Of a stretch of 64,000 nucleotides of DNA, positions 1,196-37,611 are shown in pieces. The stretch covers positions 779,001-843,000 of the forward strand of contig BRXU01000037.1 of the NCBI GenBank assembly GCA_030267565.1, in the 5' to 3' direction. Origin of the DNA: Pleodorina starrii (Eukaryota; Chlorophyta; Chlorophyceae; Chlamydomonadales; Volvocaceae). The translations under genes and the position numbers were made by a program. Numbering within the stretch: the stretch's first letter is position 1; every line of letters begins with the position of its first letter. The notes beneath the pieces were generated by a model. That model was not told where the DNA came from. It searched no databases and saw only the letters and a program-made list of their open reading frames with translations.

Positions 1196-1212
1196 TAATA
1201 ATAATAATAATA
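1196..1212 (-). repeat. (ATT)n 3' tail of Dualen-A
   Basis: On the minus strand GGGCG is followed by about six ATT units and then the target duplication. Dualen-B has the same GGGCG-TATTATT junction (28001 onward), which shows that the trinucleotide tail is the family's real 3' end. The 3' UTR between tail and stop codon is short, 1213-1328. Confidence 0.88.
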
Positions 1213-1328
1213 CGCCCGACCGGAGGCCGAGGCGTGGGTTAAGGGAGCAGAGGAGGTGGGGTGACGGGTTTCCCCGGTCCCAGTCCTCCCCCACCACCGC
1301 TGTGGGGATGGGAGCAAGGATGTGTTGG

Positions 1329-7743: not shown

Positions 7744-7798
7744 GTTTCAAACAAAATGCCACTCAGAACACTCCAAAATTGTAGGCGCTGTTGGGACA

Positions 7799-9343
7799 AT
7801 GTCACAAGGGAAAGAGGTCCTTCAAGGGGCAACACATATGCCTACACAGGCAGCAGGACAAACGAGAGACTCCCAACATGAAAAGCCACAGAGCTTAAAG
7901 CTTAAGAACACCAGCAGAGGAAGAACGAAGCACATCATCACCGCCAGAGTCGCAATGATGCCTGCAAGGAGTCAGAAAATGAGCACAAACAGAACCATCT
8001 ACACCAACCCAAGGTGCACTCTGAACATAGAAGGAATACCTTGGCATAGATGGCCTTGGCTCCCGAGACCTAGCTCCCCACACAGAAACGTCAGAAAACA
8101 AGCGCTCGGAAAAGAAGCACGTCATCAACCTGGTGACCTAAGCATAATATCCAATGTGGAGTTCTATGAAGAACAGCCTCAGAAGAAAAAGAGCAGGAGT
8201 AAACTGCATCGAGAGGAACGTGTAAACATCGTGACCGAACGAAATAGAATGATGGTCTACACAGACCGACAAACAGGGCAACATATAGTGGAAGTAGAAG
8301 CAACTCGCGGCCGACCACTCTCGGAAACCGTACGTCACCCTACCTGCAACTTAGCCTGGGTAACGGACACTATCGGCCATCAGATACCGAGAACAAAGAT
8401 CCGCTCAAACACATTGGCGCGAATCTGGCCACATCCTCCTGCAGAAGTAAGCAACTATGATACATTGCGCATCGTAAAGACCTCGCTCGACACCCCGCTC
8501 AAACCGGGAAGTGGAAGAATGGCAGGGAACAATACACGACAGCTTCTCAACCGTCTAGGCAGTGAACTGGTGGACCACAGCGAAGGGCGGCCCGTCATCG
8601 CAGCCACGAGCGGGCAACTGGGCAGTGCCCTTCAGGAGGCCAGGCAGTACGCACACCCCCTCACTGTCTCGCAGCTACCCAAGGGGATCACACAGCAGCG
8701 GGCAGATGAAGCTGTTCTGGAGTACCGCCAGCCAAGACCCACAGCACCCTCTGTGGGCTTTGTGAGGGCCGCCTACGGTGGCCTGCAGAACAAACTCATC
8801 CTGAGCAACGGCACTCAAACCAAGTGCACAATGAGGGGCCTTCTGACGGGTCGACTTTGCAGCGAGGCCCAAGACACCCTCCGACAACAACTGCTGCAGC
8901 AGCAACCCGCTATGGGGCCCAACAGGCCCCTTGGCAGGGGCGACCGGGGTGGATGGAGCAGACAGCCAGCCCCCGCCTGGGGAAGGGGGCGCGGTGCGCC
9001 GCCCCCGGACCCCCCAGCTGGAGGCGCCACACTCGACATCTGTGCCATCCCTGCGGACAGGATGCAGGCGGTGGTGTTCACGCAGCGCTACCTCGCGGGC
9101 CTAGGGCTCGAGAACCCCGCAGACATGAAAATCCAAGCCGCTGAGCTCCGCGAAACCCCCATCGCCGGCAGCTCTGACGCCATCCAAATTCAGGATGTGG
9201 CCATCACGGCGCCGCACAGCACCATCTCCGTCCTGGTCGCCATGGCAGCCAGCAGCAGCGACGAGAATCTGGGCCTGGCCACCCTCAACACGGATAGCAA
9301 GAGCCTCGTACCGAAGTACGGTATGCCAGATATGGACGTGTGA
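7799..9343 (+). CDS. Dualen-B ORF1-like N-terminal protein
   Basis: The first ATG in the main frame is at 7799, and the frame closes at TGA 9341-9343, giving 514 codons. I do not recognise a named domain. The first ~150 residues are basic and Lys/Arg-rich (KKKSRSKLHREER), which suits RNA binding. The middle has a Gln/Gly/Arg-rich stretch (LRQQLLQQQ, RGDRGGW, GRGRGAPPP), and the rest is of mixed composition. Position at the 5' end of a LINE suggests an ORF1-like nucleic-acid-binding role; this is inference. The next coding block continues in the same frame directly after the TGA, so the stop could be a real ORF boundary, a readthrough stop (TGA followed by C is a leaky context), or a nonsense mutation. 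Confidence 0.6.
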   Translation: MSQGKEVLQGATHMPTQAAGQTRDSQHEKPQSLKLKNTSRGRTKHIITARVAMMPARSQKMSTNRTIYTNPRCTLNIEGIPWHRWPWLPRPSSPHRNVRKQALGKEARHQPGDLSIISNVEFYEEQPQKKKSRSKLHREERVNIVTERNRMMVYTDRQTGQHIVEVEATRGRPLSETVRHPTCNLAWVTDTIGHQIPRTKIRSNTLARIWPHPPAEVSNYDTLRIVKTSLDTPLKPGSGRMAGNNTRQLLNRLGSELVDHSEGRPVIAATSGQLGSALQEARQYAHPLTVSQLPKGITQQRADEAVLEYRQPRPTAPSVGFVRAAYGGLQNKLILSNGTQTKCTMRGLLTGRLCSEAQDTLRQQLLQQQPAMGPNRPLGRGDRGGWSRQPAPAWGRGRGAPPPDPPAGGATLDICAIPADRMQAVVFTQRYLAGLGLENPADMKIQAAELRETPIAGSSDAIQIQDVAITAPHSTISVLVAMAASSSDENLGLATLNTDSKSLVPKYGMPDMDV

Positions 9344-12300
9344 CCCACCGGCGCCTCGAGCTCAGCCCCGCGCCACCTCTCGGTGCCAGTCAGCATCGAG
9401 GTGCTGACGGGACCGTACCAAACCGAGAGCATCAAGTCGTACCGCCACGCCACGGAAGGATACCTCTCAGCCCTCACGGAGGAGGCTGAGACAGGAAAGG
9501 ACCTGAGGGCCATGTTGGACAAGGCCCGGCAAGCACCACTACTCCTTCTGTCGGACGCAGATATCCAGCCGATTGGGCGGAAGGAAAACGAGCAGCGCTA
9601 TCTCCAACGCCTTGGCTGCCAGCCGCGCCTGCTAAATGGATGCGCGCGACTCAGTTACAGCCAGCCCAGCAACCACAACCTGGCGCTGCGGGCGCAGTCC
9701 TGGACGATTGGGACCACGGCATCCAGCATCGTACGGGTCCAGACCCTTCCCGCCCCCGGGCGCCACCCTGAGGCCCCGCCTGACGGTGCTTTTGAGGTCC
9801 GGTTCAGCAACCTGCCAGATCGCCGGGGGGTGCTGCCCTCGCAGGCCCAGGCGCTGGCGGCGACACTCACAGCTAACCTGGCAGCGAGCAAGCTGCAGAG
9901 CCGTGCCAGACAGCACGCCAGGGATATACCGGGGGCCGCAGCGCCACTAGCGGCAGCCAAACCAGACGTGTACCTGCTCAGTGCGCGTGGAGACAGCTCG
10001 CACAGCCTGGCCGATAACGGGGAGGAGGCAGTACTGCGCGCCCTCAAATGGCGGACAGGCAACCGCAGCGTCCCGCTTGGTGACAGCCCGAGGTCCGAGC
10101 ACCCAGTGGAGGGGTGGCTGTATGAAAAGCCAGACCCCACGGCGAAGCTCGCCCTGGAGACGCAGTCAGCCCCCGACCTGGCGACGCTGCTGTCGATCAC
10201 ACTCCTGAAAGCTGACCTCCAGCCCACCCAGCCGCTCCGTTTTGTCACAGTTAACCCGGACATGGCGCTCGAAGTAGAGGCAACCGCGAGCTACGCTGCG
10301 CCAAAGGAGGGCCACCAGCAGGTCAACACCTTCCGTTTCATAGGCACCAAAGGGGGCCGGGGCGCTGACAGCAGAATGGCGGCTGTGACCGTCATCTCAG
10401 ACGTGCTGGCGGGCAAACCACTGACGGCTAGCCTCTCACTCACTGAGGACGGACCGAAATGCAAGGCCATCACGCTGGCGTCCTCCTACGCCATAGTGAC
10501 CAGCCCGCCCCGGCAGCCGCTGCACGTCACACAGAAGTCCCCCCCGGCGGACCCGGACTCGCCAAGGATGAAGTTCAGTGACAGTGAGGAGGAGGACCCC
10601 CAGGTCCCACCGCCACGCGTCAACCTCTTGGGGGCGCTCAACGCGGCCGCTGCGGCGGCGGCTCAGGCTGCAGCGGTAACGGCTGCTGCGCCGGCGGCTC
10701 AGGCTGCAGCGGCAGAGGCCGCTGCGGCGGCGGCTCAGACTGCAGCGGTAACGGCCGCTACGCCGGCAGCTCAGGCTGCAGCGGCAGAGGCCGCTGCGGC
10801 GGCGGCTCAGACTGAAGCGGTAAAGGCCGCAACGCCGGCAGCTCAGGCTGCAGCGGCAGAGGCCGCTGCGGCGGCGGCTCAGGCTGCAGCGGCAGAGGCG
10901 GCAGAGGCCGCTGTAGCAGCGACCCAGGCCGCAGCAGCGAAGCCAGGAGGGCAAGAGATGCTGCTGCCCACAGGACGGCAGACGACGCAGGTGCGCCCCA
11001 GGGCCACATGCGGAACAACTGTAGTAAAACCCCATGAAACGCAACACAGACCCACACCAGAACCTTCGCACCCTCGCATGCACAGGGCATCAAACGCAAG
11101 CCTCCGGGCACGAGCACGGAGGACAGCGACGGAAAGGAAACGGGCCGTGACGACATGGACACTACCCACGGCTAATCCCAAAGGTGGGTGGAAACCAGAA
11201 CACAACACGCAGGGTTGTAGGACAGGGCACATGTACACCAATGGCTCATCAGAACCCTCAAGACCTAACCCAGTCAGAGCCGCGCACCCATGCGAGTCAC
11301 GCTCTAAATATGTCTCAACAATACTGCCCCCGCAAAAACCGTTGACGCAGGCGCACAAGAGAGGAGATGGTTCCCGCCCAAAAGGCACCACTGGCGGAGG
11401 GTTAGTAATGCCCCACGGGGTGGGCCCGGAACGTGAGACTGGCTCGCGGCTTCATCAGCAGACAGGGAGAGATACAAGCTGCGGTGACGAAGGGCCGGGA
11501 GTGGCACCCGTTATTTACCCCTGCGGCGGCAGCGTGGTGCATGTCGTGCATTCGTACGGCAAGCGCAGTTGCGGTTGGATAGAACCTGCCGAAACAGGGC
11601 GCACGCGGGTGTACGGCTCCCCCGACGGCTGGTGTGTGGTGCCCTGCGGGGCGAACTCGAGAAGCGAGGACGGATCGCGGTGTGATGGGCAACCGGAATC
11701 GGATACAAGCTGCGGTGACGAAGGGCCGGGAGCGGCACCCGTTAGTTACCCCTGCGGCGGCGGCGTGGCGCATGTCGTGCACTCGTACGGCAAGCGCAGT
11801 TGCGGTTGGATAGAACCTGCCGAAACAGGGCGCACGCGGGTGTACGGCTCCCCCGACGGCTGGTGTGTGGTGCCCTGCGGGGCGAACTCGAGAAGCGAGG
11901 ACGGATCGCGGTGTGAAGGGCAATCGGAATCGGATACAAGCTGCGGTGACGAAGGGCCGGGAGTGGCACCCGTTAGTTACCCCTGCGGCGGCATCGTGGC
12001 GCATGTCGTGCACTCGTACGGCAAGCGCAGTTGCGGTTGGATAGAACCTGCCGAAACAGGGCGCACGCGGGTGTACGGCTCCCCCGACGGCTGGTGTGTG
12101 GTGCCCTGCGGGGCAAACTCGAGAAGCGAGGACGGATCGCGGTGTGATGGGCAACCGGAATCGGATACAAGCTGCGGTGACAAAGGGCCGGGAGTGGCAC
12201 CCGTTATTTACCCCTGCGGCGGCGGCGTGGCGCATGTCGTGCATTCGTACGGCAAGCGCAGTTGCGGTTGGATAGAACCTGCCGAAACAGGGCGCACGCG

Positions 12301-15300
12301 GGTGTACGGCTCCCCCGACGGCTGGTGTGTGGTGCCCTGCGGGGCGAATTCGAGAAGCGAGGACGGATCGCGGTGTGATGGACAATCGGAATCGGATACA
12401 AGCTGCGGTGACGAAGGGCCGGCAGTGGCACCCGTTAGTTACCCCTGCGGCGGCGGCGTGGCGCATGTCGTGCATTCGTACGGCAAGCGCAGTTGCGGTT
12501 GGATAGAACCTGCCGAAACAGGGCGCACGCGGGTGTACGGCTCCCCCGACGGCTGGTGTGTGGTGCCCTGCGGGGCGAACTCGAGAAGCGAGGACGGATC
12601 GCGGTGTGATGGGCAACCGGAATCGGATACAAGCTGCGGTGACGAAGGGCCGGGAGTGGCACCCGTTATTTACCCCTGCGGCGGCGGCGTGGCGCATGTC
12701 GTGCATTCGTACGGCAAGCGCAGTTGCGGTTGGATAGAACCTGCCGAAACAGTGTGCACGCGGGTGTACGGCTCCCCCGGCTGGTGTGTGGTGCCCTGCG
12801 GGGCGAATTCGAGAAGCGAGGACGGATCGCGGTGTGATGGACAATCGGAATCGGATACAAGCTGCGGTGACGAAGGGCCGGCAGTGGCACCCGTTAGTTA
12901 CCCCTGCGGCGGCGGCGTGGCGCATGTCGTGCATTCGTACGGCAAGCGCAGTTGCGGTTGGATAGAACCTGCCGAAACAGGGCGCACGCGGGTGTACGGC
13001 TCCCCCGACGGCTGGTGTGTGGTGCCCTGCGGGGCGAACTCGAGAAGCGAGGACGGATCGCGGTGTGAAGGGCAATCGGAATCGGATACAAGCTGCGGTG
13101 ACAAAGGGCCGGGAGCGGCACCCGTTAGTTACCCCTGCGGCGGCGGCGTGGCACATGTCGTGCACTCGTACGGCAAGCGCAGTTGCGGTTGGATAGAACC
13201 TGCCGAAACAGGGCGCACGCGGGTGTACGGCTCCCCCGACGGCTGGTGTGTGGTGCCCTGCGGGGCGAATTCGAGAAGCGAGGACGGATCGCGGTGTGAT
13301 GGACAATCGGAATCGGATACAAGCTGCGGTGACGAAGGGCCGGGAGTGGCACCCGTTAGTTACCCCTGCGGCGGCAGCGTGGCGCATGTCGTGCACTCGT
13401 ACGGCAAGCGCAGTTGCGGTTGGATAGAACCTGCCGAAACAGGGCGCACGCGGGTGTACGGCTCCCCCGACGGCTGGTGTGTGGTGCCCTGCGGGGCGAA
13501 TTCGAGAAGCGAGGACGGATCGCGGTGTGATGGACAATCGGAATCGGATACAAGCTGCGGTGACGAAGGGCCGGCAGTGGCACCCGTTATTTACCCCTGC
13601 GGCGGCGGCGTGGCGCATGTCGTGCATTCGTACGGCAAGCGCAGTTGCGGTTGGATAGAACCTGCCGAAACAGTGCGCACGCGGGTGTACGGCTCCCCCG
13701 ACGGCTGGTGTGTGGTGCCCTGCGGGGCGAATTCGAGAAGCGAGGACGGATCGCGGTGTGATGGACAATCGGAATCGGATACAAGCTGCGGTGACGAAGG
13801 GCCGGCAGTGGCACCCGTTAGTTACCCCTGCGGCGGCGGCGTGGCGCATGTCGTGCATTCGTACGGCAAGCGCAGTTGCGGTTGGATAGAACCTGCCGAA
13901 ACAGGGCGCACGCGGGTGTACGGCTCCCCCGACGGCTGGTGTGTGGTGCCCTGCGGGGCGAACTCGAGAAGCGAGGACGGATCGCGGTGTGATGGGCAAC
14001 CGGAATCGGATACAAGCTGCGGTGACGAAGGGCCGGGAGTGGCACCCGTTATTTACCCCTGCGGCGGCGGCGTGGCGCATGTCGTGCATTCGTACGGCAA
14101 GCGCAGTTGCGGTTGGATAGAACCTGCCGAAACAGTGTGCACGCGGGTGTACGGCTCCCCCGACGGCTGGTGTGTGGTGCCCTGCGGGGCGAATTCGAGA
14201 AGCGAGGACGGATCGCGGTGTGATGGACAATCGGAATCGGATACAAGCTGCGGTGACGAAGGGCCGGCAGTGGCACCCGTTATTTACCCCTGCGGCGGCG
14301 GCGTGGCGCATGTCGTGCATTCGTACGGCAAGCGCAGTTGCGGTTGGATAGAACCTGCCGAAACAGTGTGCACGCGGGTGTACGGCTCCCCCGACGGCTG
14401 GTGTGTGGTGCCCTGCGGGGCGAATTCGAGAAGCGAGGACGGATCGCGGTGTGATGGACAATCGGAATCGGATACAAGCTGCGGTGACGAAGGGCCGGCA
14501 GTGGCACCCGTTAGTTACCCCTGCGGCGGCGGCGTGGCGCATGTCGTGCATTCGTACGGCAAGCGCAGTTGCGGTTGGATAGAACCTGCCGAAACAGGGC
14601 GCACGCGGGTGTACGGCTCCCCCGACGGCTGGTGTGTGGTGCCCTGCGGGGCGAACTCGAGAAGCGAGGACGGATCGCGGTGTGAAGGGCAATCGGAATC
14701 GGATACAAGCTGCGGTGACGAAGGGCCGGGAGTGGCACCCGTTAGTTACCCCTGCGGCGGCAGCGTGGCGCATGTCGTGCACTCGTACGGCAAGCGCAGT
14801 TGCGGTTGGATAGAACCTGCCGAAACAGGGCGCACGCGGGTGTACGGCTCCCCCGACGGCTGGTGTGTGGTGCCCTGCGGGGCAAACTCGAGAAGCGAGG
14901 ACGGATCGCGGTGTGATGGGCAACCGGAATCGGATACAAGCTGCGGTGACAAAGGGCCGGGAGTGGCACCCGTTATTTACCCCTGCGGCGGCGGCGTGGC
15001 GCATGTCGTGCATTCGTACGGCAAGCGCAGTTGCGGTTGGATAGAACCTGCCGAAACAGGGCGCACGCGGGTGTACGGCTCCCCCGACGGCTGGTGTGTG
15101 GTGCCCTGCGGGGCGAATTCGAGAAGCGAGGACGGATCGCGGTGTGATGGACAATCGGAATCGGATACAAGCTGCGGTGACGAAGGGCCGGCAGTGGCAC
15201 CCGTTAGTTACCCCTGCGGCGGCGGCGTGGCGCATGTCGTGCATTCGTACGGCAAGCGCAGTTGCGGTTGGATAGAACCTGCCGAAACAGGGCGCACGCG

Positions 15301-18300
15301 GGTGTACGGCTCCCCCGACGGCTGGTGTGTGGTGCCCTGCGGGGCGAACTCGAGAAGCGAGGACGGATCGCGGTGTGATGGGCAACCGGAATCGGATACA
15401 AGCTGCGGTGACGAAGGGCCGGGAGTGGCACCCGTTATTTACCCCTGCGGCGGCGGCGTGGCGCATGTCGTGCATTCGTACGGCAAGCGCAGTTGCGGTT
15501 GGATAGAACCTGCCGAAACAGTGTGCACGCGGGTGTACGGCTCCCCCGGCTGGTGTGTGGTGCCCTGCGGGGCGAATTCGAGAAGCGAGGACGGATCGCG
15601 GTGTGATGGACAATCGGAATCGGATACAAGCTGCGGTGACGAAGGGCCGGCAGTGGCACCCGTTAGTTACCCCTGCGGCGGCGGCGTGGCGCATGTCGTG
15701 CATTCGTACGGCAAGCGCAGTTGCGGTTGGATAGAACCTGCCGTAACAGGGCGCACGCGGGTGTACGGCTCCCCCGACGGCTGGTGTGTGGTGCCCTGCG
15801 GGGCGAACTCGAGAAGCGAGGACGGATCGCGGTGTGAAGGGCAATCGGAATCGGATACAAGCTGCGGTGACAAAGGGCCGGGAGCGGCACCCGTTAGTTA
15901 CCCCTGCGGCGGCGGCGTGGCACATGTCGTGCACTCGTACGGCAAGCGCAGTTGCGGTTGGATAGAACCTGCCGAAACAGGGCGCACGCGGGTGTACGGC
16001 TCCCCCGACGGCTGGTGTGTGGTGCCCTGCGGGGCGAATTCGAGAAGCGAGGACGGATCGCGGTGTGATGGACAATCGGAATCGGATACAAGCTGCGGTG
16101 ACGAAGGGCCGGGAGTGGCACCCGTTAGTTACCCCTGCGGCGGCAGCGTGGCGCATGTCGTGCACTCGTACGGCAAGCGCAGTTGCGGTTGGATAGAACC
16201 TGCCGAAACAGGGCGCACGCGGGTGTACGGCTCCCCCGACGGCTGGTGTGTGGTGCCCTGCGGGGCGAATTCGAGAAGCGAGGACGGATCGCGGTGTGAT
16301 GGGCAACCGGAATCGGATACAAGCTGCGGTGACAAAGGGCCGGGAGTGGCACCCGTTATTTACCCCTGCGGCGGCGGCGTGGCGCATGTCGTGCATTCGT
16401 ACGGCAAGCGCAGTTGCGGTTGGATAGAACCTGCCGAAACAGTGCGCACGCGGGTGTACGGCTCCCCCGACGGCTGGTGTGTGGTGCCCTGCGGGGCGAA
16501 TTCGAGAAGCGAGGACGGATCGCGGTGTGATGGACAATCGGAATCGGATACAAGCTGCGGTGACGAAGGGCCGGCAGTGGCACCCGTTAGTTACCCCTGC
16601 GGCGGCGGCGTGGCGCATGTCGTGCATTCGTACGGCAAGCGCAGTTGCGGTTGGATAGAACCTGCCGAAACAGGGCGCACGCGGGTGTACGGCTCCCCCG
16701 ACGGCTGGTGTGTGGTGCCCTGCGGGGCGAACTCGAGAAGCGAGGACGGATCGCGGTGTGATGGGCAACCGGAATCGGATACAAGCTGCGGTGACGAAGG
16801 GCCGGGAGTGGCACCCGTTATTTACCCCTGCGGCGGCGGCGTGGCGCATGTCGTGCATTCGTACGGCAAGCGCAGTTGCGGTTGGATAGAACCTGCCGAA
16901 ACAGTGTGCACGCGGGTGTACGGCTCCCCCGACGGCTGGTGTGTGGTGCCCTGCGGGGCGAATTCGAGAAGCGAGGACGGATCGCGGTGTGATGGACAAT
17001 CGGAATCGGATACAAGCTGCGGTGACGAAGGGCCGGCAGTGGCACCCGTTATTTACCCCTGCGGCGGCGGCGTGGCGCATGTCGTGCATTCGTACGGCAA
17101 GCGCAGTTGCGGTTGGATAGAACCTGCCGAAACAGTGTGCACGCGGGTGTACGGCTCCCCCGACGGCTGGTGTGTGGTGCCCTGCGGGGCGAATTCGAGA
17201 AGCGAGGACGGATCGCGGTGTGATGGACAATCGGAATCGGATACAAGCTGCGGTGACGAAGGGCCGGCAGTGGCACCCGTTAGTTACCCCTGCGGCGGCG
17301 GCGTGGCGCATGTCGTGCATTCGTACGGCAAGCGCAGTTGCGGTTGGATAGAACCTGCCGAAACAGGGCGCACGCGGGTGTACGGCTCCCCCGACGGCTG
17401 GTGTGTGGTGCCCTGCGGGGCGAACTCGAGAAGCGAGGACGGATCGCGGTGTGAAGGGCAATCGGAATCGGATACAAGCTGCGGTGACGAAGGGCCGGGA
17501 GTGGCACCCGTTAGTTACCCCTGCGGCGGCGGCGTGGCGCATGTCGTGCATTCGTACGGCAAGCGCAGTTGCGGTTGGATAAAACCTGCCGAAACAGGTC
17601 GCACGCGGGTACCCACACGGATATTCTTCCCCAACCCATGCACCACCTGGCACGGCGCATTACGAACACTGCAAAACCTCTCGACGGGCACAACACACAT
17701 GGCCACCATCGTGTGGCTAGCCCGCAACACTTGGCTTATGACCGCGACGATCGCCCTGTGGGCGACGGATGCGACCCTTTACCTCGCGGCAGACGTATCC
17801 TACGCAACTGTCGATACCATTGCTGTCGGCTGCGCGCTAGGCTGCGCCTACCTGGCCTACACGTGGGTTGGCAACCTTGCCCGAAGAACATGCACCGTAG
17901 TGAAACGGACATTCACCGTCAAAGGGAGCGTGATTCGAACGCTGTCCGAATGGCGACAGGGCTGGTACTGCATCATCCTCCTTCCGTACACTCTGATCCC
18001 TGGAGCGCTTGCAGTCTCACTCCCCCCACTGACTGAGGCGGTCTGGCTCGTGCTAGGGGCCCTGACACTCTATGGACTGGCATACATTGTTACAGTTCTC
18101 ATAGTTATACCGGCAGGAATAACATCCGTGAAGGCAATCTTGCATGCTGCACTTGTCACCCGCTCTGAAGTCCGAAAGGTACAGAACTCCCCAGGCCCCT
18201 ACGTGCGGGCAGCAACGTCTCTCCTGGCCCTAGCGTCGCTGTGCTGGCTACTTGCTACAGCCGACGCACACGTGCCAATCCTAATCATGGGAATCTCCAT

Positions 18301-21300
18301 CATGACCCCTGGGCTCCAAGCGGTGCCACTCGTGGCGCGCCACACGTGGCACCTACTCACCGCCTGCGCCGCAGTAGGACTCACCACGGCCCACCTCAAC
18401 GCAACGCTCGACCCGTACACCAGCGTACTGACACTTCTCGCCCTGGCCATCTGGAACCACCCCCACCCACGCACCTGCAACCGCGGGCGCGTCAGCGATG
18501 AACCTGCACCACATATACCAAAAAACCCCGGTAAAGCACCTGAGCACAACCCGTGCTGCGCTAATTCCGAATACGCGCCCTGCGCCGGCCAAACCGATAG
18601 ACCCGCAAAGAGAACAAGGACCACCGGGAACCGCGGCAAGGGCCACGCACCAAGGCCACCCGCAGACATCACTTGGCCACCGCCTGGTCCAGCTGCGCCC
18701 GGCGCACCCCTGTACCACGAAAAACAGCAGAGACAGCTATGTATGATACACTCCATAAACAACTTGCTTGGGGGGCCGTACATCGACCCCGAGCACATTC
18801 TCAGTTACTGCCGAGCAATGCAAGCACACATGGCGGCTTGGAGGCTCACCGGGGCGCTTGCCATCTGGAACACGGCACACCGCCCCAACGAAGGTCTGTT
18901 TTCCACAATAGTGGTGAATCACTACCTCCGCCACAGCGTACGGCTGCAAGACCCCGGCGGCATACCCATCGGAGACGCCCACATCGCCAGTGCGAGCTGC
19001 CAACACGCGGGGCAAACCGTTACCCTGACACGAAACATGAACATAAACACGGTTGTGTCACTCTTGCCGGCACACGCCCGAAACTGGGGCTTTATTGTCC
19101 ACCTCAACGGACACGCCGTAGCAGTCAAGAAGCAGGGCGAGTGCTGGTACATTATCGACTCCCTGTACGACAACACACAACTGATCAGCCCCGCAGAGCC
19201 GCTCTGGCCTCGGGGGGAGGGGGCGGTCTACTGCCTCCACCTCCGCCCGAACCATGAAGGGATCGCTACCCATACAGACCTGAGGGACGTCAAACTCCCG
19301 GAGGACTGGGCCCTTCCCCCAGGCGGAACCCAGCAACCGACACAATCGCCCCCGGAAACACACCCCAGAAACCCCCCAGTGGACGGCACCCAGCAAGATG
19401 CACCCACTGACCAGTCACCGCCGAACCAGGAGCCCATGGACACCGACGACCGTGAAAGACGAGCGACGACGGAGCACCCAGCGACTGAACCCATGTGCAT
19501 GGCATTGGACCCCGACGGGCGCGACCCGGACGGGCCTCCAGCACCAAACCCCCTCCATCCAAACCAGCCACCGGAAACCCAGGTTCCCGCAGAGGCGGCA
19601 GAAGGCGCACCAGATCACCGTGCCACCAACGTAGAAGCGGCACGGCGCACGACCGGCGCATATCCCGAAGTGCGACACGCCGCCCCGCGTGTTCAACACG
19701 GCCCGACGGCACGCCGACTCAACCATGCGGTGGAGCGCGCAACAACGGTGATACAGCACGACGCAGCTCCCCACACGGCGACAGCCGCGAGAAAACGTAG
19801 GAAGATTGGGCCAGTACCCCACACGCATACGATCCTATACCACCTGCTACGCAACCAAGGCCTACCCATCCGGCAAACCGGAAGGGAAGCCACAGACGTC
19901 AACCAAAATGCAGGGGCCCAGCCCCTTGACCCGGCGTGCCTGGACGCCACGCCTAGCGCGCCCCAAACACAACCCGCCAGGGACAAGTCAGCCCGCGAAC
20001 GCGCCGCAGAACCACCCCCCGCCGGCAGGCCCCAACCTGCCCATCAGCTCAAAAAGCAGCAACAAAGCATCGGGCGGTACATTCAGCCCAAGACACAGAG
20101 GGCTACAGTGCACAACGCAACCGAAAAGCAGCCGCCGCCGACCGCCGCAGACCCCAACCCCCCGACACCGGGCGCCCCGCAGTCCGGGCACCTTAAAGTC
20201 CTCACGATGAACACACGGGGCCTTCAGGGTCACCGCGAGGGAATCGCACACATGCTAGACGAACATAAGCCAGACGTCATAGTCCTGACCGAGACCAAGC
20301 TTAGCGCGCGCCACCGACGAGGCATTGTCAGTGTCAAACAGGCCCTCCGGCCATACCAGACATACATGAGCAACCGTCCCCACCCGGAACACAACAGGAC
20401 ACGTGAAGCGGGTGTCATTGTTGGGGTGGCGGAACACTTCAGCGGCCAAGGCAGCGCGAATATAGAGCCCGTCCCTCCGAGCCTTGAGGGCTACATCGGA
20501 CACGTTCGCATCAAAACCCCAGGCAGCATCCCCCTACACGTGCTGGGGGTTTACTGCCCGGCGGACCTCTCGATCAGGCAAGCGATATACGAGTACGGAC
20601 AAATCGCCGCCACACAAGCCAGCGCCAAGGGGGAGAACCTCATCATGGCGGGCGACTGGAACGCAACACTCCATCCTAGCGACAGGTCCACGGGCACATG
20701 CTACCCGGCAGACCGGGCGCATCGTAACTTCTCGAGCAGCGCGAACCTAAACCCCGTCGACACCCCGCGGCGCACCTACACCTACACGCAGACACAGCTG
20801 GGCCACGATACTCACCACAGCCGGATAGATGACGTCCTGCTGGCCGCCCACACCGGAGCGGCAGCAGACAAGGAGGGCACGGTGTACGAACAAGTGTACG
20901 AATGCGGAGGAAACTTCGACCATAAACCCCTCTGCACGTTCATCCCGCTGGCGGGTATTCGTCTCCTTCCAGCGCCCGCGGCTCAAGCCGCAGTTGACCA
21001 CGCGGCTAGCTCATGGAGCCGCATACAACTCCCAATCCTTAAAGAGAGTAAAACCCGGGCGCACATGGAGATTGAAGCGACGCTCACTTCTGAAATCGCC
21101 CACCTGCTAAGCGCTCTACACCCGGCGTGTGAAGCCATCGGACACGTCGCTAAACAGCTGGAACGTGCCTCCAGTAAGGAAGAGGCACGAGCACTCCTGG
21201 CTAACGTGCGCAACCACGATACCGTCCGGGCGACGGACGTCACTACCCTCAGCCATGAACTAGGCGACCTGCTCGACCGCTGCCTTGGGATACTGGAATT

Positions 21301-22983
21301 TCACTGTCCACAGAAACCCCCCTGTACGGGGAAGATGCATGTGCGACGTGGCATCGGCAGGCGCCTCACCAGGCTGCACAATGACCACAAAACCATGAAA
21401 GATAATCTCGCAAAAGCCCTGCACACGGGCCCCCAGGAGCAAGGGGCACCTACACTAACGGAGGGCCAAGCCAATGGCACGACGCCCCCCCATCCGGCCA
21501 CGGCGCCCCCAGGCACCAGCGGCACAACGGAACGGGCAACACCCGAGCGCAGCGCCGCCACTCAGCATGCCGCCACTGAGCGCGAAGAACCAGACGCAGC
21601 CCGCACCCTGCGTGCGGCCATTAAAGCGACCGGAGGGGAAATCGCCAAGCTTGCTCGAGAGATTCGTGCAACTAACGCACGCAAGGCAAAGAAAAGCTTC
21701 CAGTGGCTACTAACCAAAAATCCCCGGCACGCGCACAGACAGGTCCTTGAACCCGATGACCAGCCCCGCGGAATCGCGGCCATCCGACACCCAACCGATG
21801 GACGACTGTGTACTGATTCCAAAAACATACTCGATGCGCTTCACACGCACTTCGCCCTTCTTGCGAGACCCGTCTCTGGCCCACGAACGGGAAAGTACCT
21901 CCCAAACGAAGCCCCCCGGAACTATCCCTGGACCAGACCGGGCGGGCAGGACCCGCTTAGGGAAGGGCTGGCCAAGTGGGGAGACGCCCCCCCATCACTC
22001 CTCCCGGGTGTACTAGATCCACACAACTTCCGCACGTCTATTGACCACCTCGCGAGAAACAAGGCCCCAGGCCCCGACGGGATACCCAACGAACTTCTAC
22101 AAACACTACCCGCCGACCTCCAGACCGCCATCCACCAGCTCATTACGGTCATGTGGGTGAAGGCCGAAATCCCCACACACTGGACGAAATCCGACACGGT
22201 CCTTATCCCCAAGAAGGGCGACCCGCTCCTCATTAAGAACAAAAGGCCCATCGCCCTGGCGAACACAATTTACAAGCTGTACACCAGCCACATTACGCTG
22301 AACATCGTACTCTACAGTGAGCAAGCGCACATCTTTACGGAAGCTCAGGAGGGCTACCTGAGGCAACGTACCACCGAGCGCCAACTCCAAAACGTGCTAC
22401 ACGCAATCGAGGACGCGGGCCTCACCAGCCGTGACCTCTTCCTTCTATACATCGACTTCACGTCTGCGTTCAACACGATCGATCACGACAAGCTGCTCAT
22501 GATCATGTACGACCTGGGCTACCCGGACGACCTGATCGAAGTGGTAGCTAACCTATACTCACGGGCCACCACGCGCATCCGGACAGAGCACGGCTGCACA
22601 GCGGACATAGCCATCGAACGCGGTACCATTCAGGGTGACACGCTGTCCCCGGTGCTGTTCATCATCTATATGGAACCCCTACTCAGGTGGCTGCACAGCG
22701 GAGGACGGGGATACCAGTACGGATGCCTCAAGGCCGAGGAAAATGAGCGGCACCATTTCAGCTCGGGAGCGTTCGCAGACGACTTGGTCACACTCACAAA
22801 CAGCGTTTCAGACATGCGTCTCCAATGTGCGAAAATCGAGCAGTACGCGCAATGGGGAGCCCTGAAGGTCAACGTTGGCAAATGTCAGCTGCAAGGCATC
22901 CTGCACGGCCGCGCACGGTCGGACCAGGACCTGAGCCGGGGACCCGGCACCCGCAAATATCAGACTGCCCTTGAGCGACTGCT
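9344..22983 (+). CDS. Dualen-B giant polyprotein, from after the TGA to the SINE insertion
   Basis: The open frame is continuous over 13.6 kb. The first in-frame ATG after the stop is at 9512. Its true start is uncertain, since translation could also come by readthrough from 7799. Order: ~430 residues of unassigned sequence ending in an acidic SDSEEEDPQ; an Ala-rich repeat (10640-10941); a basic stretch (RARRTATERKR); 77-residue Cys-rich repeats; membrane region; Josephin-like protease; a Pro/Thr/Gln-rich linker (about 19246-20188); APE endonuclease; a charged linker (20951-21850); and the RT up to ...ALERLL, where the SINE enters. The frame resumes at 23313. Such LINE proteins nick DNA and copy their RNA in place. 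The protease and membrane parts suggest extra host interactions. Confidence 0.85.
10640..10941 (+). repeat. In-frame Ala-rich tandem repeat (about 72-bp unit)
   Basis: About four imperfect copies of a ~24-residue unit of the type AAQTAAVTAATPAAQAAAAEAA. They are nearly all Ala with Gln, Glu, Thr and Lys, and probably form a helical spacer. The unit length keeps the frame open. Confidence 0.8.
11467..17603 (+). repeat. 231-bp tandem repeat coding a 77-residue six-cysteine unit (~27 copies)
   Basis: Twenty-six full units plus a partial last one lie in frame inside the Dualen-B polyprotein. All are 231 bp except two of 228 bp (units at about 12666 and 15435), which lack the same single codon. 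Each unit keeps six cysteines: SCGDE, YPCGG, KRSCGW, GWCVV, VPCGA and SRC. HVVHSYG adds histidines and a Trp follows the third Cys, a pattern compatible with a metal-binding or disulfide fold, but I recognise no family. Variable positions are few (E/K, G/A, V/A, I/S, G/S, GR/VC, D/E, P/S). Copies 3-14 and 15-26 form a 2,769-bp duplication. Dualen-A is truncated before this part, so it cannot show whether the repeat is a family trait. Confidence 0.93.
17699..18466 (+). other. Multi-pass membrane region of the Dualen-B polyprotein
   Basis: Starting at an ATG (17699), about 255 residues contain seven or eight hydrophobic segments, for example YCIILLPYTLIPGALAVSL, EAVWLVLGALTLYGLAYIV, VRAATSLLALASLCWLLA and VLTLLALAIW. 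Short basic loops (RRTCTVVKRTF, TRSEVRKVQ) separate some of them. Dualen-A has the same hydrophobic layout at 33034-32290 with quite different residues but a shared VIPxG motif, so the property and not only the DNA has been kept. A membrane domain is not part of the standard LINE protein. It could anchor the protein to the ER or nuclear envelope; that is inference. Confidence 0.82.
18695..19245 (+). other. Josephin-like cysteine protease (deubiquitinase) domain of Dualen-B
   Basis: The segment YHEKQQRQLCMIHSINNLLG closely follows the start of Josephin domains (ataxin-3 type), with the catalytic Cys at 18740-18742. GLFSTIVVNHYLR matches the FF/LS helix, NGHAVAVKK holds the catalytic His (19112-19114), and CWYIIDSL the third residue (Asp at 19157-19159, where ataxin-3 has Asn), followed by QLIS. 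Spacing fits a ~170-residue domain. Josephin enzymes cleave ubiquitin from proteins. A cysteine protease is known in the Dualen/RandI clade; assigning it to the Josephin group is my reading of the motifs. All three catalytic positions are intact, and the domain is also kept in Dualen-A. Confidence 0.85.
20189..20950 (+). other. APE-type endonuclease domain of Dualen-B
   Basis: The exonuclease-endonuclease-phosphatase motifs occur in order: TMNTRGLQGH (Asn), VIVLTETKL (Glu), LGVYCP, MAGDWNA (Asp and Asn), SRIDDVLL (Asp) and GGNFDHKPL (Asp-His). All catalytic residues are present, so the domain looks functional. In LINEs this enzyme nicks the target strand to prime reverse transcription. It is separated from the Josephin-like domain by ~310 residues of low-complexity Pro/Thr/Gln-rich sequence. 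Dualen-A carries the same domain with the same motifs. Confidence 0.93.
21850..22983 (+). other. Reverse transcriptase domain of Dualen-B, first part
   Basis: RT blocks in order: NKAPGPDGIPNELL, DTVLIPKKGDP, NKRPIALANTIYKLY, YIDFTSAFNTIDHDKL, ERGTIQGDTLSPVLF, the catalytic FADD (22772-22783) and GALKVNVGKCQ. The SINE then interrupts at ALERLL, and the thumb continues from 23313 with DQIRIDGSPIPYAPP and YKYLGVHVTPTLDW. The core is colinear with the RT of Dualen-A. Confidence 0.92.
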
Positions 22984-23312
22984 TTTTTTTTTGAATTCCG
23001 GAGGAACCCGGACTCGGGACATGGGACACACATGTTGTCTGGCGGCTCCACTGATGCTGCCACTTCTGCTGAGTAGCTAGCGTGCCAGGCTTCTGGGCGA
23101 CTCCACGGGCCAGCCGGACGGTGCTGATGACTGTATGATGAGTCTTGTAAACCTCCGGACAGGACAAGGACAGGGGTGGGCACCCTCCTTTCTCATCACA
23201 CCCCGGGTAATGGTCACTGACCGGTTTCGATCCCGGGATCCCGGGGGGAATTGCAAGGTTTCCCTGTTGCCAGCCAATGAACCATTACCTCCTTCTGTGG
23301 GGCGCAGGTAAG
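22984..23312 (-). mobile_element. tRNA-derived SINE inserted in the Dualen-B RT
   Basis: This ~329-bp insert starts with a T-run (a poly(A) tail read from the other strand) and GAATTCCGGAGGAACCC. It ends at a CAGGTAAG just before the coding sequence resumes. TGCT is found on both sides (22980-22983 and 23313-23316), a minimal target duplication. It is one of at least nine copies of the same family in the window; this copy lacks the 5' tRNA-like head. It breaks the RT frame between the palm and thumb. Confidence 0.85.
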
Positions 23313-26300
23313 TGCTAAAAGACCAAATCCGTATAGACGGATCACCGATACCCTACGCGCCCCCGACCGCCTCGTACAAATACCTGGGAGTCCATGTAAC
23401 CCCTACCCTCGACTGGGCACCTCAAGTAGCCTATGTCCGCGCTGAGATCACGAGGCGAGGACAGGGCATCCAGGAGTCCATGGCGTCTCCCGACCAGCGC
23501 ATCAACATGATCAAAACCCTGATCCACCCATTCGTCACGTACAGCCTGGCCACTATGGCGTACACTCCCCAAGACATCGCCAGCTTCGACTCCCAAATTG
23601 CTGGCATAGCTAAGCGCAGCTATGGCCTTAAAATGGGGTTTCCCACCCGCGCAATCCTCGGTCCAGTAAAGCAACTCGGCCTGGGGGTCGGCACCATACG
23701 CAGCCTCTATGTCGCCAAGGCGGCCAAAGCTCTCGTCCTCTCCCTGAATGACGAAGGCCGACTTGGGGTAGTCACTAGGGCTCTCCTTAGCCTGCAAAGC
23801 CGATACATGGGCGACATGCCGGTGCACGCCCTCAAGAAGGAAAGCCGCTTCTACACGACGCTAAAGCAGCTGACCATCACGCAGGAGGCGGGCATTGAGC
23901 TCACGGACTGTGGCAAAGGGTACGAACGGAAAGCAAGCACTCTCATTCACCTTCTAGCGGCGTGCAACTCGGGGACGGAGCCCAAAACCCTCGCGCTCCT
24001 CTCCAGATGCGTACAGCCTCTGCTTGAGCTGGGCCTGGATCTCCGAGTCCTGAAAGATAAGAACACAGGAGCACACTTCATTACCACGGACCAGCTCCGA
24101 CGCATCGGTGGACGGAGTGTCGGGCCCCGACACCTCATCGCCCTGAACCAACTCAGCCTAGCACTGAACCCCGTTCTCAGTGTACGCGCCCGCGCGGCGA
24201 GGCACCGAGGGGTGACTGTGCTGCCCCCGGAGCTGCGGGCCATCCCCAGTGGGCCCATTATGACGGACCTCATGAATGACACACACGGACCCACGCCGCT
24301 TCCTCATGGAAATATCATGCGATATGTGGTGTCACGCCCCCGGGACACGACCGGGGCCCCACCGCCAGACCCTTCGCCCGCCGCGCACAACCCCAACCCA
24401 GATCCGGCGGCCCCAAGACGGGAAGTCGGATCCCAGGAGGGCCAGGTGAGGCGCCCAGCGCAACAAAGGGAAGCTCGGCGCCACATGCCCCGACACAACG
24501 CTACCGAAGAAACCATGACGGCATACATCAGGAGGCAGCGCCCAAAACCCACCTGCAACATCACGGACACAACTGCCTCCGGATGGGACCCCAGAGAAAG
24601 CCCACTCACCGTCACGCACTGTGAAGCCCTGCTGCGTCACCGCGACCTCCCAGGACTAGCAGCCGAAGTGGGGACCGCATCGCAGCTTGAAGAAATGCTG
24701 CGGGGAGAGCGAGAATGGCCCACAGGGGTTGCCTTTAAATACGGCCACAACATCAACCAATATCTATTCGGCGAGCAAGAGAGGGTAGCCCTTATCCACG
24801 CGCAGATCCGCAAGCGGGTGGAAGCAGGCCCCCGAGCCGCAAAGCGGCAACGCAGAGATACACCCCGGCACCCCACACACAGCACCTTCTACCAAGTTGA
24901 GTGGGAAAGCACAGTTATCACCAAAGGGGCGCTCGAGCTGTACGCAGCGCACGGATACCTACCCACGGCAACACGTCCGTACGAGGCCGCAGCAGATCCG
25001 GCAACCCCCACCAAAAGGATCGAAGTAGACTGGGCGCGAATCGAGGACGAAGGCACGCGCCTGGCCACCCAAGACAACTGGAACGAGCTGCTCAATGCAT
25101 TCCGACACCGCCTAGAGGCGGCAGCCGAGACGGCCCCCGGGCGCACTGCGCCAGCCCGAGACCAGCACCTTAATCCGAGGCAGCAGCAAGGCCAATGGGC
25201 CTCTGAATGCCTCAACCAGGCCAGAGGACAACGGCTCCTACGCCAACACGTAGAAATCGATGTACATCCCGGCAACCCGGATAGGGACATCCGCCCGACA
25301 GGGTGATACACCATCCAGATTGGCAAACACAGCGACCCCGACCCCTTTAACCGCGCACCTTGGGACGGCAGCGGAGATACTCCTGCAGGCCTCCTAGAAC
25401 AGGGAGTCGCGCTTGTTTACGACCCCCAGGGACGATGCATCGGCACGCTCCTGGACAGCTTGCTGCGCAGCCTGTGGCTAAGGCACTCCGACGCCAAATG
25501 TAAGAGGCCGGAGGCGCACGCCAAGCTTGCAGCGGCGGGTGGCTTCGAGGAAGACGTGGCACGCCTCCTCCTGCGCTACCGTGATGGAGGGGGCACCAAA
25601 ACACACCCCGTTAAGGCGGCGCACGAGCAAGGACTCGGAGAACAGTTTACAACACGTCTCATGAATGCCATGGGTTCAAGCACAGAACGCTTTGCGTCCC
25701 CTTTAAATGTGGCTAACTGCACTGAAACGTACTTCTCACGCTTCCCAGAAGACATGCTCTTTGGGGCCAACCATGACGCATACTCCCAACCGTTTACCGG
25801 CTTGTCCATCGCACACCCGGAACCCACACCCGAGGAGGGCCACCATGCCTTGCGGTGGGCGTTGGGCTGGGCGGAAGCCAAAAAGACCGAGGCTACGCAG
25901 ACCGCCACCCTTATCGTAGTCCCCACGTCCCGTACAGCACCGTATACCCGGTACCTATCGCACCCCCTGGTCACTCAAGTGGGTAGCATCGACTCGCTCG
26001 CCGCCAAGGGGATACTGCAAAGCGCCACACTCAACGTGGACACCAAGCCTTACCCGGTTGGCTTGACCCTGCTACTGGTCAGTAACGACGCGGGCAAATC
26101 ACACGTGAGCAGCCTCCGGCAGGCGCTAGGTATGCGCACCACCCTGCCAGCGCCTACAGGTCAAGCCCAGCCGTGGATAGCCCCCCAGTGGGTACGGAAA
26201 CGCGTCCACAAAATGACTGCCGGAGCGCCTGACCAGGCGGTGTCCTCTCGTAAGTGCAGCAACCCCACACCCGCTGAACGACGCTCCGCGCACCTGGCGT

Positions 26301-27883
26301 TCCATGCAGCAAACCCGCTTCGGTACAACGCCCACGCCTCCATCTACACTGATGGGTCGGTTAGGGAAGTCGAGGTCGGGAACACCAAGATGTTAGGACT
26401 CGGCGCCGCAGCAGTCGACGCACTGACTGGACATACGCTCCTCATAGATGTCAACCCAGGAGCCTACGGATGTCAAACAATTACGCGCTGTGAACTAAGC
26501 GCGATACATCAGGCACTCACCATGCGACGCGGCCTACCTCACAACCAAGCCCACCTCAGCATTTGGACGGACTCCAAAGCATCGCTCCATTTGATCCAGA
26601 AGATGATAAACAACCCGCAAAAATTGCGGCTGAGTAAACATAGAGCACTGCTCGAGGACATCGTTACCGCACTTAAAGCCCGGGCCGTCGCCAAGCTTAA
26701 AACGTCGCTATTGAAAGTCAAAGCACACACAGGAGTTCGATATAATGAAGCAGCGGACAAAGCCGCCGTACAGGCTGCTATCCTTGCGGCGCAGGGAATG
26801 CTGCCGGCAGAAGCCGTAATAGAGAAAGCAGACAATAATCCAAGAAGTAAACACTGGTGGCTACGGAAGTCCGAGGGGACCGACGTAAACGCCGGTCGCT
26901 ACGCCAACGACCTTAACCGCGGCATCGACACTCTGGTCAGCCAGACGACACACAATGGGTACACCAACGAGACCGCATACGTCAAATACGTAGAGGATGC
27001 CTTACCGGACCTAGAGATCAATGCCAGCACCAGAACCCTGCAGCGGGGCACGGGCCGGCACCGGCATTACAAACGGTGCCTTGACTACCTGTACGGACAG
27101 CTCTGGAATGCCAAACTCGCAAAGCTCTTTCGAATGCCCCTTGTACCGGGCGGCCCAACGTCCACAGGCTACTGCCCTGTGTGCAAAGACCCCCAAACAA
27201 AGACACGCATCCCTGACTCAGGAGCACACATCCTGGGAGGCTGCCAACATGCACGAATGCACGCTCTCTATACCCTGCGACACAACCAAGCGGTACAAAC
27301 CATCACCAGAACACTCTCAAGAGGGGCCCATGGAGGCTGCTTTATCGTCATGGACGCCTGCAGCATGGAGAACAAGCCGGACTACGTGGCCGGCACACGC
27401 CTGCCCAAGTGGCTGCTTCCCAACATCCCCGACGACGATCGGTCCAAAAAGCGCCCCGACCTGCTGCTTATCCCCAGCATACCCCTCAGCGACACATGCT
27501 CACCGGGATACATGGGACCAGATGACCCCAGCGAGCACACTGTACACATAATCGAAGTAGGCTACACAGCCGACACAAATCACACACAGAAACAAAACGA
27601 CAAAGCCCATCAACACGCGGAACTAGCTCAGATGCTGACGGCGCACGGATGGAAAGTATGCTACACGAAACAGGAAGCAATTAGCCTGGGCTTCGCCGGC
27701 ACCATCCGCAAAGACCTGCGACAACTGCTGACCTCACTGGGAACGAGCAACAAAGCGGCCAAAAAATGCTGCAACGACCTCCACGACCACGCTGTCCGAG
27801 CGTTGAACGCAATTGTCGCTGCCAGGAGGCAGCTGGAGCGGGATCCCCGCCAACAGAGCACAACCAGCGCCGACCCGCCCTAA
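23313..27883 (+). pseudogene. Dualen-B polyprotein, C-terminal part: RT thumb, RNase H, CCHC, restriction-like endonuclease
   Basis: The frame continues after the SINE to TAA 27881-27883, with one internal TGA at 25304-25306. RT thumb: YKYLGVHVTPTLDW and RINMIKTLIHPFVTYSL. RNase H (about 26320-26790) has IYTDGS with the first Asp at 26351-26353, RCELSAIHQAL, IWTDSKAS and KAHTGVRYNEAADKAA. The finger is CX2CX14HX4C (cysteines at 27173, 27182 and 27242, histidine at 27227), with a seven-residue longer loop than in Dualen-A. The nuclease has RPDLLLIPS (Asp 27458-27460), HIIEVGYTAD (Glu 27554-27556) and a Lys/Gln-rich helix after it. All catalytic residues are present. It is labelled a pseudogene only because of the TGA and the upstream SINE. 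Confidence 0.88.
25304..25306 (+). other. Single nonsense codon in Dualen-B
   Basis: RPTG is followed by TGA and then YTIQIGKH. The aligned position in Dualen-A is PTGRYTIQIGKH with Arg, so CGA has become TGA, as expected from C-to-T decay at a CpG. The frame on both sides is open and colinear with Dualen-A. Confidence 0.9.
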
Positions 27884-27999
27884 CCCGCCGCGACGGCGGG
27901 CTCCCAATCTCACCGCGGTAGCGGGAGAGGCCTGGGATCGGGGCAACCCGACACCCCACCCCTCCTGCTCCCATAACCCACGCCTCGGCTCTGTCGGGC

Positions 28000-28000
<1 letters not shown>

Positions 28001-28033
<33 letters not shown>
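28001..28033 (+). repeat. (TAT)n 3' tail of Dualen-B
   Basis: About eleven TAT units follow TCGGGCG and run directly into the right target duplication TTTCAGGT (28034-28041). The 3' UTR between the stop and the tail is only about 117 bp (27884-28000). Confidence 0.9.
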
Positions 28034-28034
<1 letters not shown>

Positions 28035-28041
28035 TTCAGGT
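28034..28041. repeat. Target-site duplication of Dualen-B, right copy
   Basis: TTTCAGGT matches 7736-7743 exactly and marks where the Dualen-A sequence resumes. Confidence 0.9.
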
Positions 28042-30904: not shown

Positions 30905-32090
30905 TTGGGCGGGGCCCCAGCGCGAAGCGCCCAGGGGGGCCCCGCCCTGTAGGATTGCCCATGTCCGTGCCCGCACTGTCTGATGTCTGTAAAAAGGCAA
31001 GTGTGGACTTTCGGCCAACGGAAAGTCTGCAGAAGTAAAAGATTACATTCTTTATTGCACGGTAAATTTATTATTGGAACCCAACCTCGTATGAGTAAAA
31101 ACCAGTTTGGCAGTCTCCATGGACCGAGGCCGAGGTCAAACCAACACCTCTCGGCCTATAATTAATTCCAGAAGATTCATCGTTCCTTAAGGTGGGATTC
31201 TGACATGACGGCGTGAAATGAATCTTCGTTTCGGCAAGCAACCAACTATGTGTGCATTGCGAACATTCTTCCCGCGAGCCGCGACCACACCACAGCAGCT
31301 CTGCTAGCCGGTCCGATCGTCTTGACGCATATTGCTATTACAAAGGTTGCAAGGTGCAAACCATGAGGGGCAAAATGCTGGTTGTTGGACGCCAAGCCGC
31401 CGATGCACGCACGATGCAGCGGTCTTCTGCGGGCCGCCCAACAAGTCCAGCCGGCAACCTAGGGGATGGACTTCTACATTCCCTGTCCTAATGTTAAAGC
31501 AGTCAAGCCTCCTCTAGGGCGAATACCTCAGTAGCGAAGCCTGTGCACTCTCGTCGGCAACTGCACGTCGTCGCAACCCTCGCAAACAGTTCCGCTGTCC
31601 TTCTATCTATTGGCAAGTCAGCCTGCGTGATGTGTAAATGATACACTCCATGTCTACTGTCAAGTAACTTCAGCCAATGCGCTGGCCGGAAGAGTTGCAC
31701 AGTGCCGAGACGGCGCGCGATGCTAAACATGGGTCGGATTGCTGAAGCCGCAGGTATTTCAGGTATAAAGCTCTGGCTGCCTATCAGCAGGAATGTCGAC
31801 ACTCTCACAGTTGACGCCCTCGCCGCTCGCTTTGGAAATGCCGTATTTCGGTCGATGCGCACATGCGCTCATGCACCCGGCGGGATGGCGCGCTTCGCGT
31901 GGCGCCGGCAGGCCTTGCTAACGACTCGGCTAGCAGGCAGTTCGGGAAAAAGCTCTGGCTGTCTATCAGCAGGAATGTCGACACTCTCACACTTGACACC
32001 CTCGCTGCCCTAGCACTCAACTTAACCCGTACGGATTTAGTGGGGCCCCGCCCTTTTTCCGGCTTCAAGGAAGCCGACACCAACCCCTTG
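30905..32090 (-). mobile_element. E2, Helitron2-like non-autonomous element, copy 1
   Basis: This 1.2-kb insert splits Dualen-A exactly between YHE and KQRAQMC, the spot where Dualen-B reads YHEKQQRQLC. Removing it leaves a T-run target and no clear duplication. One end is GGGCGGGGCCCC at the terminus; the other has the same motif inverted about 35 bp inside, so the inverted repeats are asymmetric. A perfect hairpin GGCTTCAAGGAAGCC sits about 12 bp from the CCAACCCCTTG end. Asymmetric repeats, a TT target and a near-terminal hairpin fit Helitron2/Helentron derivatives. A ~38-bp motif (GTCGACATTCCTGCTGATA...) occurs twice inside. No coding frame is shared intact with copy 2, so I treat it as non-coding. 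Confidence 0.6.
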
Positions 32091-33034: not shown

Positions 33035-33048
33035 AGCGTCGCCCATGA
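33035..33048. repeat. Target-site duplication of Dualen-A, right copy
   Basis: AGCGTCGCCCATGA matches 1182-1195. The L1-like frame resumes from here. Confidence 0.92.
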
Positions 33049-37529: not shown

Positions 37530-37611
37530 CCGTTGTCTGGCAGCATCAGTGGAGCCGCCAGACAACATGTGTGTCCCATGTCCCGAGTCGGGGTTCCTCC
37601 GGAATTAAAAA
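37530..37611 (+). mobile_element. 5'-truncated SINE fragment with snap-back end
   Basis: Only the last ~80 bp of the SINE plus a short A-tail (GGAATTAAAAA) are present. The left end GTTGTCTGGC is the reverse complement of GCCAGACAAC 23 bp further on, suggesting a snap-back at the truncation point. ACCGCA at 37524-37529 and 38896-38901 is its target duplication, with E2 copy 2 later inserted in the A-tail. Confidence 0.72.

Follow-up and report, generated by a model that had tools for sequence, protein, structure and literature searches.

A 64,000-nucleotide stretch of the green alga Pleodorina starrii (the window; contig BRXU01000037.1, positions 779,001 to 843,000, or C37:779001-843000 in our searches of the 136-Mb host genome) contains one non-long-terminal-repeat insertion of 20,289 bp, at 7745-28033 on the + strand. 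It is a single retrotransposed copy, no longer intact, that landed in an older antisense element of the same clade. We read the family as a Dualen/RandI-type long interspersed nuclear element (LINE) with a polyprotein whose joined parts move as a unit; to this reading, together with the mechanism proposed below, we give a probability of about 0.85. The parts are joined in one open reading frame (ORF), move together and are conserved.

One frame spans 7733-27883 (6717 codons), with a terminal TAA at 27881 and four internal stops: 9341 (TGA), 23078, 23309 and 25304 (TGA). Those at 23078 and 23309 lie inside a repeat insert of about 330 bp. The other two + frames contain 191 and 206 stops over the same interval. 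Features of this copy, including an apurinic/apyrimidinic-type endonuclease (APE) and a reverse transcriptase (RT), are as follows; the Pfam domains named score above the curated cut-off.

7736..7744, no strand: left 9-bp target-site duplication TTTCAGGTG
7747..7796, +: 50-bp piece, 90-92% to 11 other genome places
7797..11470, +: N-terminal coding-like region (P0001 from ATG 7799, TGA 9341, then P0002 residues 1-709)
11471..17610, +: 231-bp (77-aa, Cys-rich) tandem array, 26.6 units
17636..18436, +: multi-pass membrane region (hydropathy; family sequence resumes at 17621)
18725..19189, +: Josephin deubiquitinase-type domain (Pfam 1.7e-8; Foldseek to 2dos/3o65)
20201..20815, +: APE-type endonuclease (Pfam Exo_endo_phos 1.2e-9)
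22205..22891, +: RT core (Pfam RVT_1 7e-23)
22983..23313, +: ~330-bp repeat insert, ORF-breaking
24887..26290, +: PCIF1/CAPAM-like region (Pfam PCIF1_WW 5e-8 at 25541-25777; TGA at 25304 inside)
26336..26779, +: RNase H (Pfam 5.7e-14)
26801..27880, +: C-terminal zinc-knuckle and restriction-like nuclease-like region (RPD...HIIEV motif; conserved in the antisense copy)
28000..28033, +: 3' (ATT)n tail
28034..28042, no strand: right 9-bp target-site duplication TTTCAGGTG

The initial annotation had described one nearly unbroken frame with domains in order, and the long frame with its Pfam Josephin, APE, RT and RNase H bears this out. Its domain list overlooked the PCIF1/CAPAM-like domain between RT and RNase H (Pfam 5e-8). 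Its picture of a single, nearly unbroken element stands in part: this is one insertion unit in one frame, but two TGA codons and the ~330-bp insert break it. The C-terminal nuclease is a candidate recognized by motif and sequence conservation, and the zinc-knuckle pattern C..C...H...C was matched in the antisense copy only, not in the + copy. The ~330-bp repeat, which has a poly-T/A end and here sits in the RT of the + copy, also occurs in the window at about 34.4-35.0, 37.5, 39.5, 53.2-53.5, 54.8-55.1, 58.3-58.7 and 61.3-61.7 kb.

Leaving the insertion out in silico restores the open frame of the antisense copy over the stretch read. Together with the 9-bp duplication, this means that 7745-28033 moved as one unit. 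The nested arrangement splits the diverged antisense element into two halves, one at roughly 33.1-28.1 kb, the other at roughly 7.7-1.2 kb.

32351..33037, -: membrane region
30998..32091, -: ~1.1-kb other repeat, between membrane region and Josephin
30451..30900, -: Josephin (Pfam 4.9e-11)
28687..29358, -: APE (Pfam 1.7e-10)
6252..7115, -: RT (Pfam 3e-25)
3405..3638, -: PCIF1/CAPAM-like, best-scoring stretch (Pfam 1.1e-10)
2406..2852, -: RNase H (Pfam 2.4e-13)
1192..2399, -: C-terminal nuclease-like region, 3' end and (ATT)n tail

This copy is broken too, by the 1.1-kb repeat insertion and a frame change near 28.63 kb. The 1.1-kb repeat has an inverted partner, 93% alike, at 37611-38674. At 1-1242 (+) lies a fragment of another LINE RT (RVT_1 4e-8), into which the antisense copy appears to have inserted.

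Both window copies have Pfam matches to Josephin, APE, RT, RNase H and PCIF1_WW. Amino acid identity and the ratio of nonsynonymous to synonymous divergence (dN/dS, Nei-Gojobori) are 0.30 and 0.46 for the membrane region, 0.52 and 0.28 for Josephin, 0.67 and 0.14 for APE, 0.80 and 0.07 for RT, and 0.62 and 0.20 for the CAPAM-like part; these ratios are rough because dS is near saturation. Identity is 0.63 in the region after RT, 0.72 in RNase H and 0.69 in the C-terminal region, with dN of 0.22-0.30 and dS above 1.3 or saturated. The membrane regions of the two copies align with a score of 244 (43 +- 6.8 in 200 shuffles), and hydropathy is preserved at their substituted sites (r 0.28; maximum of 2000 permutations 0.23).

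The same joining recurs across the genome. The membrane-Josephin piece of the + copy has 80 genome matches: itself, 47 places where both parts are joined and 32 partial ones. Sixteen of the 47 match at 88-90% over the full query (one with a TAG); the other 31, at 38-42%, align from a start at residue 22-59 as far as residue 559. The joined places are not independent, as some on C1 and C7 resemble mutual duplicates. The antisense RT has 48 scored genome places, 16 of them in open frames of 3602-3894 aa; one more lies in a 4653-aa frame that contains N. Of five loci that we read, picked for their long frames, four have uninterrupted ORFs free of N (C32, 3894 aa; C5a, 3790; C17, 3788; C51, 3773), all in the order N-module, membrane region, Josephin, APE, RT, CAPAM-like, RNase H and C-terminal nuclease-like region. 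The C17 copy measures 11.45 kb and lies at about 2700-14150 of the stretch read, flanked by a 13-bp target duplication, TTGCTTTCATATA; for C51, a target duplication was looked for and none was found. The initial annotation had proposed that the membrane region and Josephin are joined to APE, RT and RNase H in one ORF, and had looked to the lack of any other joined copy as the opposing sign; at family level, 47 of the 80 matches span both parts, and the intact ORFs agree.

Josephin is a cellular family, and UniRef names the Pleodorina starrii relative P0051 ubiquitinyl hydrolase 1, so the membrane/Josephin part might be a separate host gene beside, or once captured by, a LINE copy. We consider this highly improbable given the 47 other joined places, the intact single ORFs and the target duplications that enclose all parts. 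In addition, the order Josephin, APE, RT, preceded by hydrophobic segments, is also seen in one Pleodorina protein and one metagenome protein; P0051 has six such segments ahead of Josephin. Database matches include Gonium, Pleodorina and Volvox, which points to a volvocine green alga as host. The viral_contigs set, searched with P0003 and the antisense RT, gave no match. Protein searches with the antisense copy found one relative for the PCIF1-to-end part and none at E 0.001 for the Josephin-APE part.

Josephin is present in 6 of the 120 listed relatives (P0006, P0007, P0013, P0022, P0043 and P0051), and in five of the nine with more than 400 residues ahead of APE. The precomputed Pfam list also gives a PHD finger in P0022 and P0072. 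The catalytic Q, C, H and N/D, at the ataxin-3 positions, are kept in all seven aligned proteins. In the Josephin model, block pLDDT (predicted local distance difference test) is mostly 60-84, with two blocks at 38-46, and the top seven PDB matches by Foldseek are all Josephins. A PDB sequence search ranked tail-spike proteins best (E 0.003) and ataxin-3 lower (E 0.011-0.045). The domain resembles the Josephin deubiquitinases ataxin-3 and JosD in Pfam match, fold match and catalytic Q-C-H-D, and differs in its setting, downstream of a membrane region within a LINE polyprotein. We regard it as an active-looking deubiquitinase, with ubiquitin cleavage predicted from its sequence. That deubiquitination shields the polyprotein seems to us slightly less than an even bet. 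The placement of Josephin between anchor and enzymes, with its catalytic set kept, would also suit a protease that acts mainly on the polyprotein, cutting the RT half loose from its membrane anchor. Ubiquitin cleavage is what Josephins are known for, however, and we think the polyprotein role rather unlikely.

PCIF1_WW scores above its cut-off (31.1) at all 150 scored genome places and in both window copies, and below it in the relatives P0003 (23.7) and P0007 (28.3). A passage of PMC7641849 describes PCIF1_WW as a CAPAM-like methyltransferase. Foldseek with the model of the antisense copy's domain found nothing at E 0.001, 6iry coming closest (E 0.016); a second look at these same matches, which adds no independent search, leads to 6irv/6iry. 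The catalytic motif of this methyltransferase is an NPPF-type sequence. The form [ND]PP[FYW] occurs in none of the 34 fully readable relatives (36 aligned): the position reads HPEP in both window copies and HPDP in P0003, with HPPF, SPPF and NPEY among relatives. The domain is like the PCIF1/CAPAM cap-adenosine methyltransferase in profile and structure comparison, and unlike it in its motif and in being fused between RT and RNase H. Judged by its residues, it may be a cap-binding pseudoenzyme, which we hold to be slightly short of an even chance. The profile and fold match and the HPPF, SPPF and NPEY variants would also suit a methyltransferase that is still active on cap or RNA adenines despite a changed motif and marks element RNA as self; part of PMC9289625 describes an orchid Gypsy element with an active demethylase of N6-methyladenosine (m6A). 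The lack of the motif in all readable relatives, and HPEP and HPDP at its position, lead us to doubt such activity.

The membrane region of the + copy has six segments with hydropathy above 1.3; in the family average, five segments exceed a threshold of 1.0, and the loops between segments are basic, alternating with acidic or neutral. Insertion of the polyprotein into a membrane is probable, though by no means assured. In six members from three subfamilies (C5/C1, C50/C36, C17/C51), the ORF starts 10, ~56 and ~112 nt past a shared 5' end. Sampled members of all three have signal-peptide-like starts by hydropathy, which the earlier description missed: 12-residue maxima are 2.86 in C5, 2.18 in C50 and 2.95 in C17, in contrast to 1.03 in P0001 of the + copy and 1.71 in C32 from its first likely start. 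The C5 and C50 modules have 248 codons in common (dN/dS 0.55) and differ over the first hundred or so residues. The C17/C51 module is unrelated to these, and a third is common to C32 and C5a (48% over 94 residues). None of the five N-modules has a Pfam match at E 0.1.

Signal-like starts ahead of membrane segments might also mark an envelope-like surface protein for cell-to-cell passage. Three N-modules hold 4-8 N-glycosylation sequons and 11-14 Cys, an RSKR site occurs in four plus-family members (C5, C1, C50 and C36), and the N-modules differ sharply among subfamilies. Sequon numbers are near expectation, however (5, 8 and 4 seen; 3.2, 3.2 and 3.1 expected), with C50 alone in excess. The multi-pass membrane part precedes the enzymes in the same ORF, and neither the five N-modules nor the N-terminal regions of the + copy match Pfam. 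We consider an envelope role improbable.

Two features initially taken as traits of the element, a length of ~20 kb and the Cys-rich array, did not hold up as such. Upstream of 17621, only the 50-bp piece and one relict match elsewhere. In C5 and C1, the 50-bp piece is N-terminal coding sequence, ~380 bp past their 5' end; from there to the family sequence is 9.8 kb in this copy and ~746 bp in theirs. Array units match at 97%, and the 26 spacings are 231 bp (24) or 228 bp (2), so the array is never off-frame. All 27 genome matches of the 231-bp unit lie within this array, whose composition is unlike the other element parts compared. As a functional Cys-rich domain it was rejected: the 17 variable sites among 24 full-length units comprise 5 synonymous and 12 nonsynonymous, a synonymous share of 0.29 (0.26 expected), about the neutral expectation. 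At the same position, ahead of the membrane region, C32 carries a tandem of unrelated sequence, so this site may be prone to tandem growth.

The region 7797-11470 has coding-like codon composition and no Pfam match at E 0.1. The P1/P2 region was rejected as a family ORF1: DNA at 7745-9340 matches elsewhere by its first 50 bp only. For 9344-10640 and 10900-11470, matches elsewhere are confined to a 482-bp relict on C12 (L047 1260-1741) that joins window 9631-9871 to 11139-11380, with no canonical splice signals at the joint by eye; 9872-10640 and 10900-11138 have no other genome match. This rarity is a DNA-level result, and distant protein relatives are possible. Compared with eight upstream stretches, the window's N-terminal protein shares a 15-residue start only. 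Since the array is private and the 3.7-kb N-terminal region nearly so, 20 kb is not the family length. This copy may belong to a rare subfamily that has an N-module of its own; since an ATG follows at 7799, the 50 bp could stem from template jumping at the 5' junction.

Elsewhere in the window, a 255-bp satellite array with 37-bp subrepeats occupies 46-62 kb, and 38682-38826 is a perfect (ACCCAGA)n repeat of 20.7 copies.

By domain set and tail, the family fits best among the Dualen/RandI-type LINEs, with new parts of its own. Dualen/RandI LINEs, the clade said to go back to Kojima and Fujiwara in 2005, reportedly have a cysteine protease; Josephin, a cysteine protease by class, may correspond to it. 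APE and RT share one ORF, RNase H is present, both window copies end in a 3' (ATT)n tail, and a conserved C-terminal region with the RPD...HIIEV motif follows RT where a restriction-like endonuclease (RLE) is expected, seen by motif only. The RT of this clade branches between the R2-like and APE groups; for the relative P0003, the nearest solved RTs are R2 (1e-31), then L1 (1e-17). For this green algal clade, a section of PMC4640811 gives APE plus a second nuclease and RNase H, and Table 3 of PMC3747384 the (ATT)n tail; a membrane region, signal-like starts and a CAPAM-like domain go unmentioned in the passages that we read on the clade. CR1/L2/RTEX LINEs are likewise tied to membranes, by an esterase thought to act there (an excerpt of PMC5408684), but theirs lies upstream of pol, whereas here integral membrane segments are in the RT-bearing ORF. 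NeSL/Utopia LINEs also have an N-terminal cysteine protease of a ubiquitin-like system, but it is Ulp1-like rather than Josephin, and part of PMC4640811 counts these RLE-type clades apart from the APE-plus-RLE Dualen group. A literature search of partial coverage found no paper that links a LINE-encoded protein with Josephin or with PCIF1/CAPAM.

In the mechanism we propose for this Dualen/RandI-type family, the polyprotein would comprise a variable N-module, about five membrane segments, Josephin, APE, RT, the CAPAM-like domain, RNase H, a zinc knuckle and a second nuclease-like region. It would be threaded into the endoplasmic reticulum (ER) or nuclear envelope with its enzyme half toward cytosol or nucleoplasm. 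Josephin would remove ubiquitin and spare the protein from degradation, or trim the polyprotein, while the CAPAM-like domain, lacking the catalytic motif, would grip the element's own mRNA at its capped 5' end. Nicking and then reverse transcription would proceed as in other LINEs. The fullest version is tentative and, in our view, on the unlikely side: an integral ER/nuclear-envelope polyprotein from residue one, with a signal peptide, a fast-changing luminal module, membrane segments, its own deubiquitinase, a cap reader derived from a methyltransferase and choosing its own full-length mRNA, and target-primed reverse transcription from the nuclear membrane. The initial suggestion that the element sits in a membrane and removes ubiquitin is now better grounded, in joined ORFs and a kept catalytic set, and is still one that we infer. 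Several observations weigh against the proposal. Signal peptides were judged by hydropathy only; P0001 of the + copy has no signal-like start, and none is evident in C32 or C5a. Membrane dN/dS within families reaches 0.79-0.91, near neutral. AlphaFold models are poor (mean pLDDT 44), so no membrane fold or topology can be derived from them. The membrane profile matches 1 of 120 listed relatives (P0013), the fifth locus read, C5b, holds N and has no membrane match, and a PDB sequence search with the CAPAM-like part found no match.

Many copies with long open frames lie in one genome, and at least one member is named a ubiquitin hydrolase in databases. How LINE proteins reach chromatin, escape degradation and choose their own mRNA are open questions, and for each of these the one conserved ORF here has a candidate part, in membrane targeting, in ubiquitin removal and in a domain resembling a cap enzyme.

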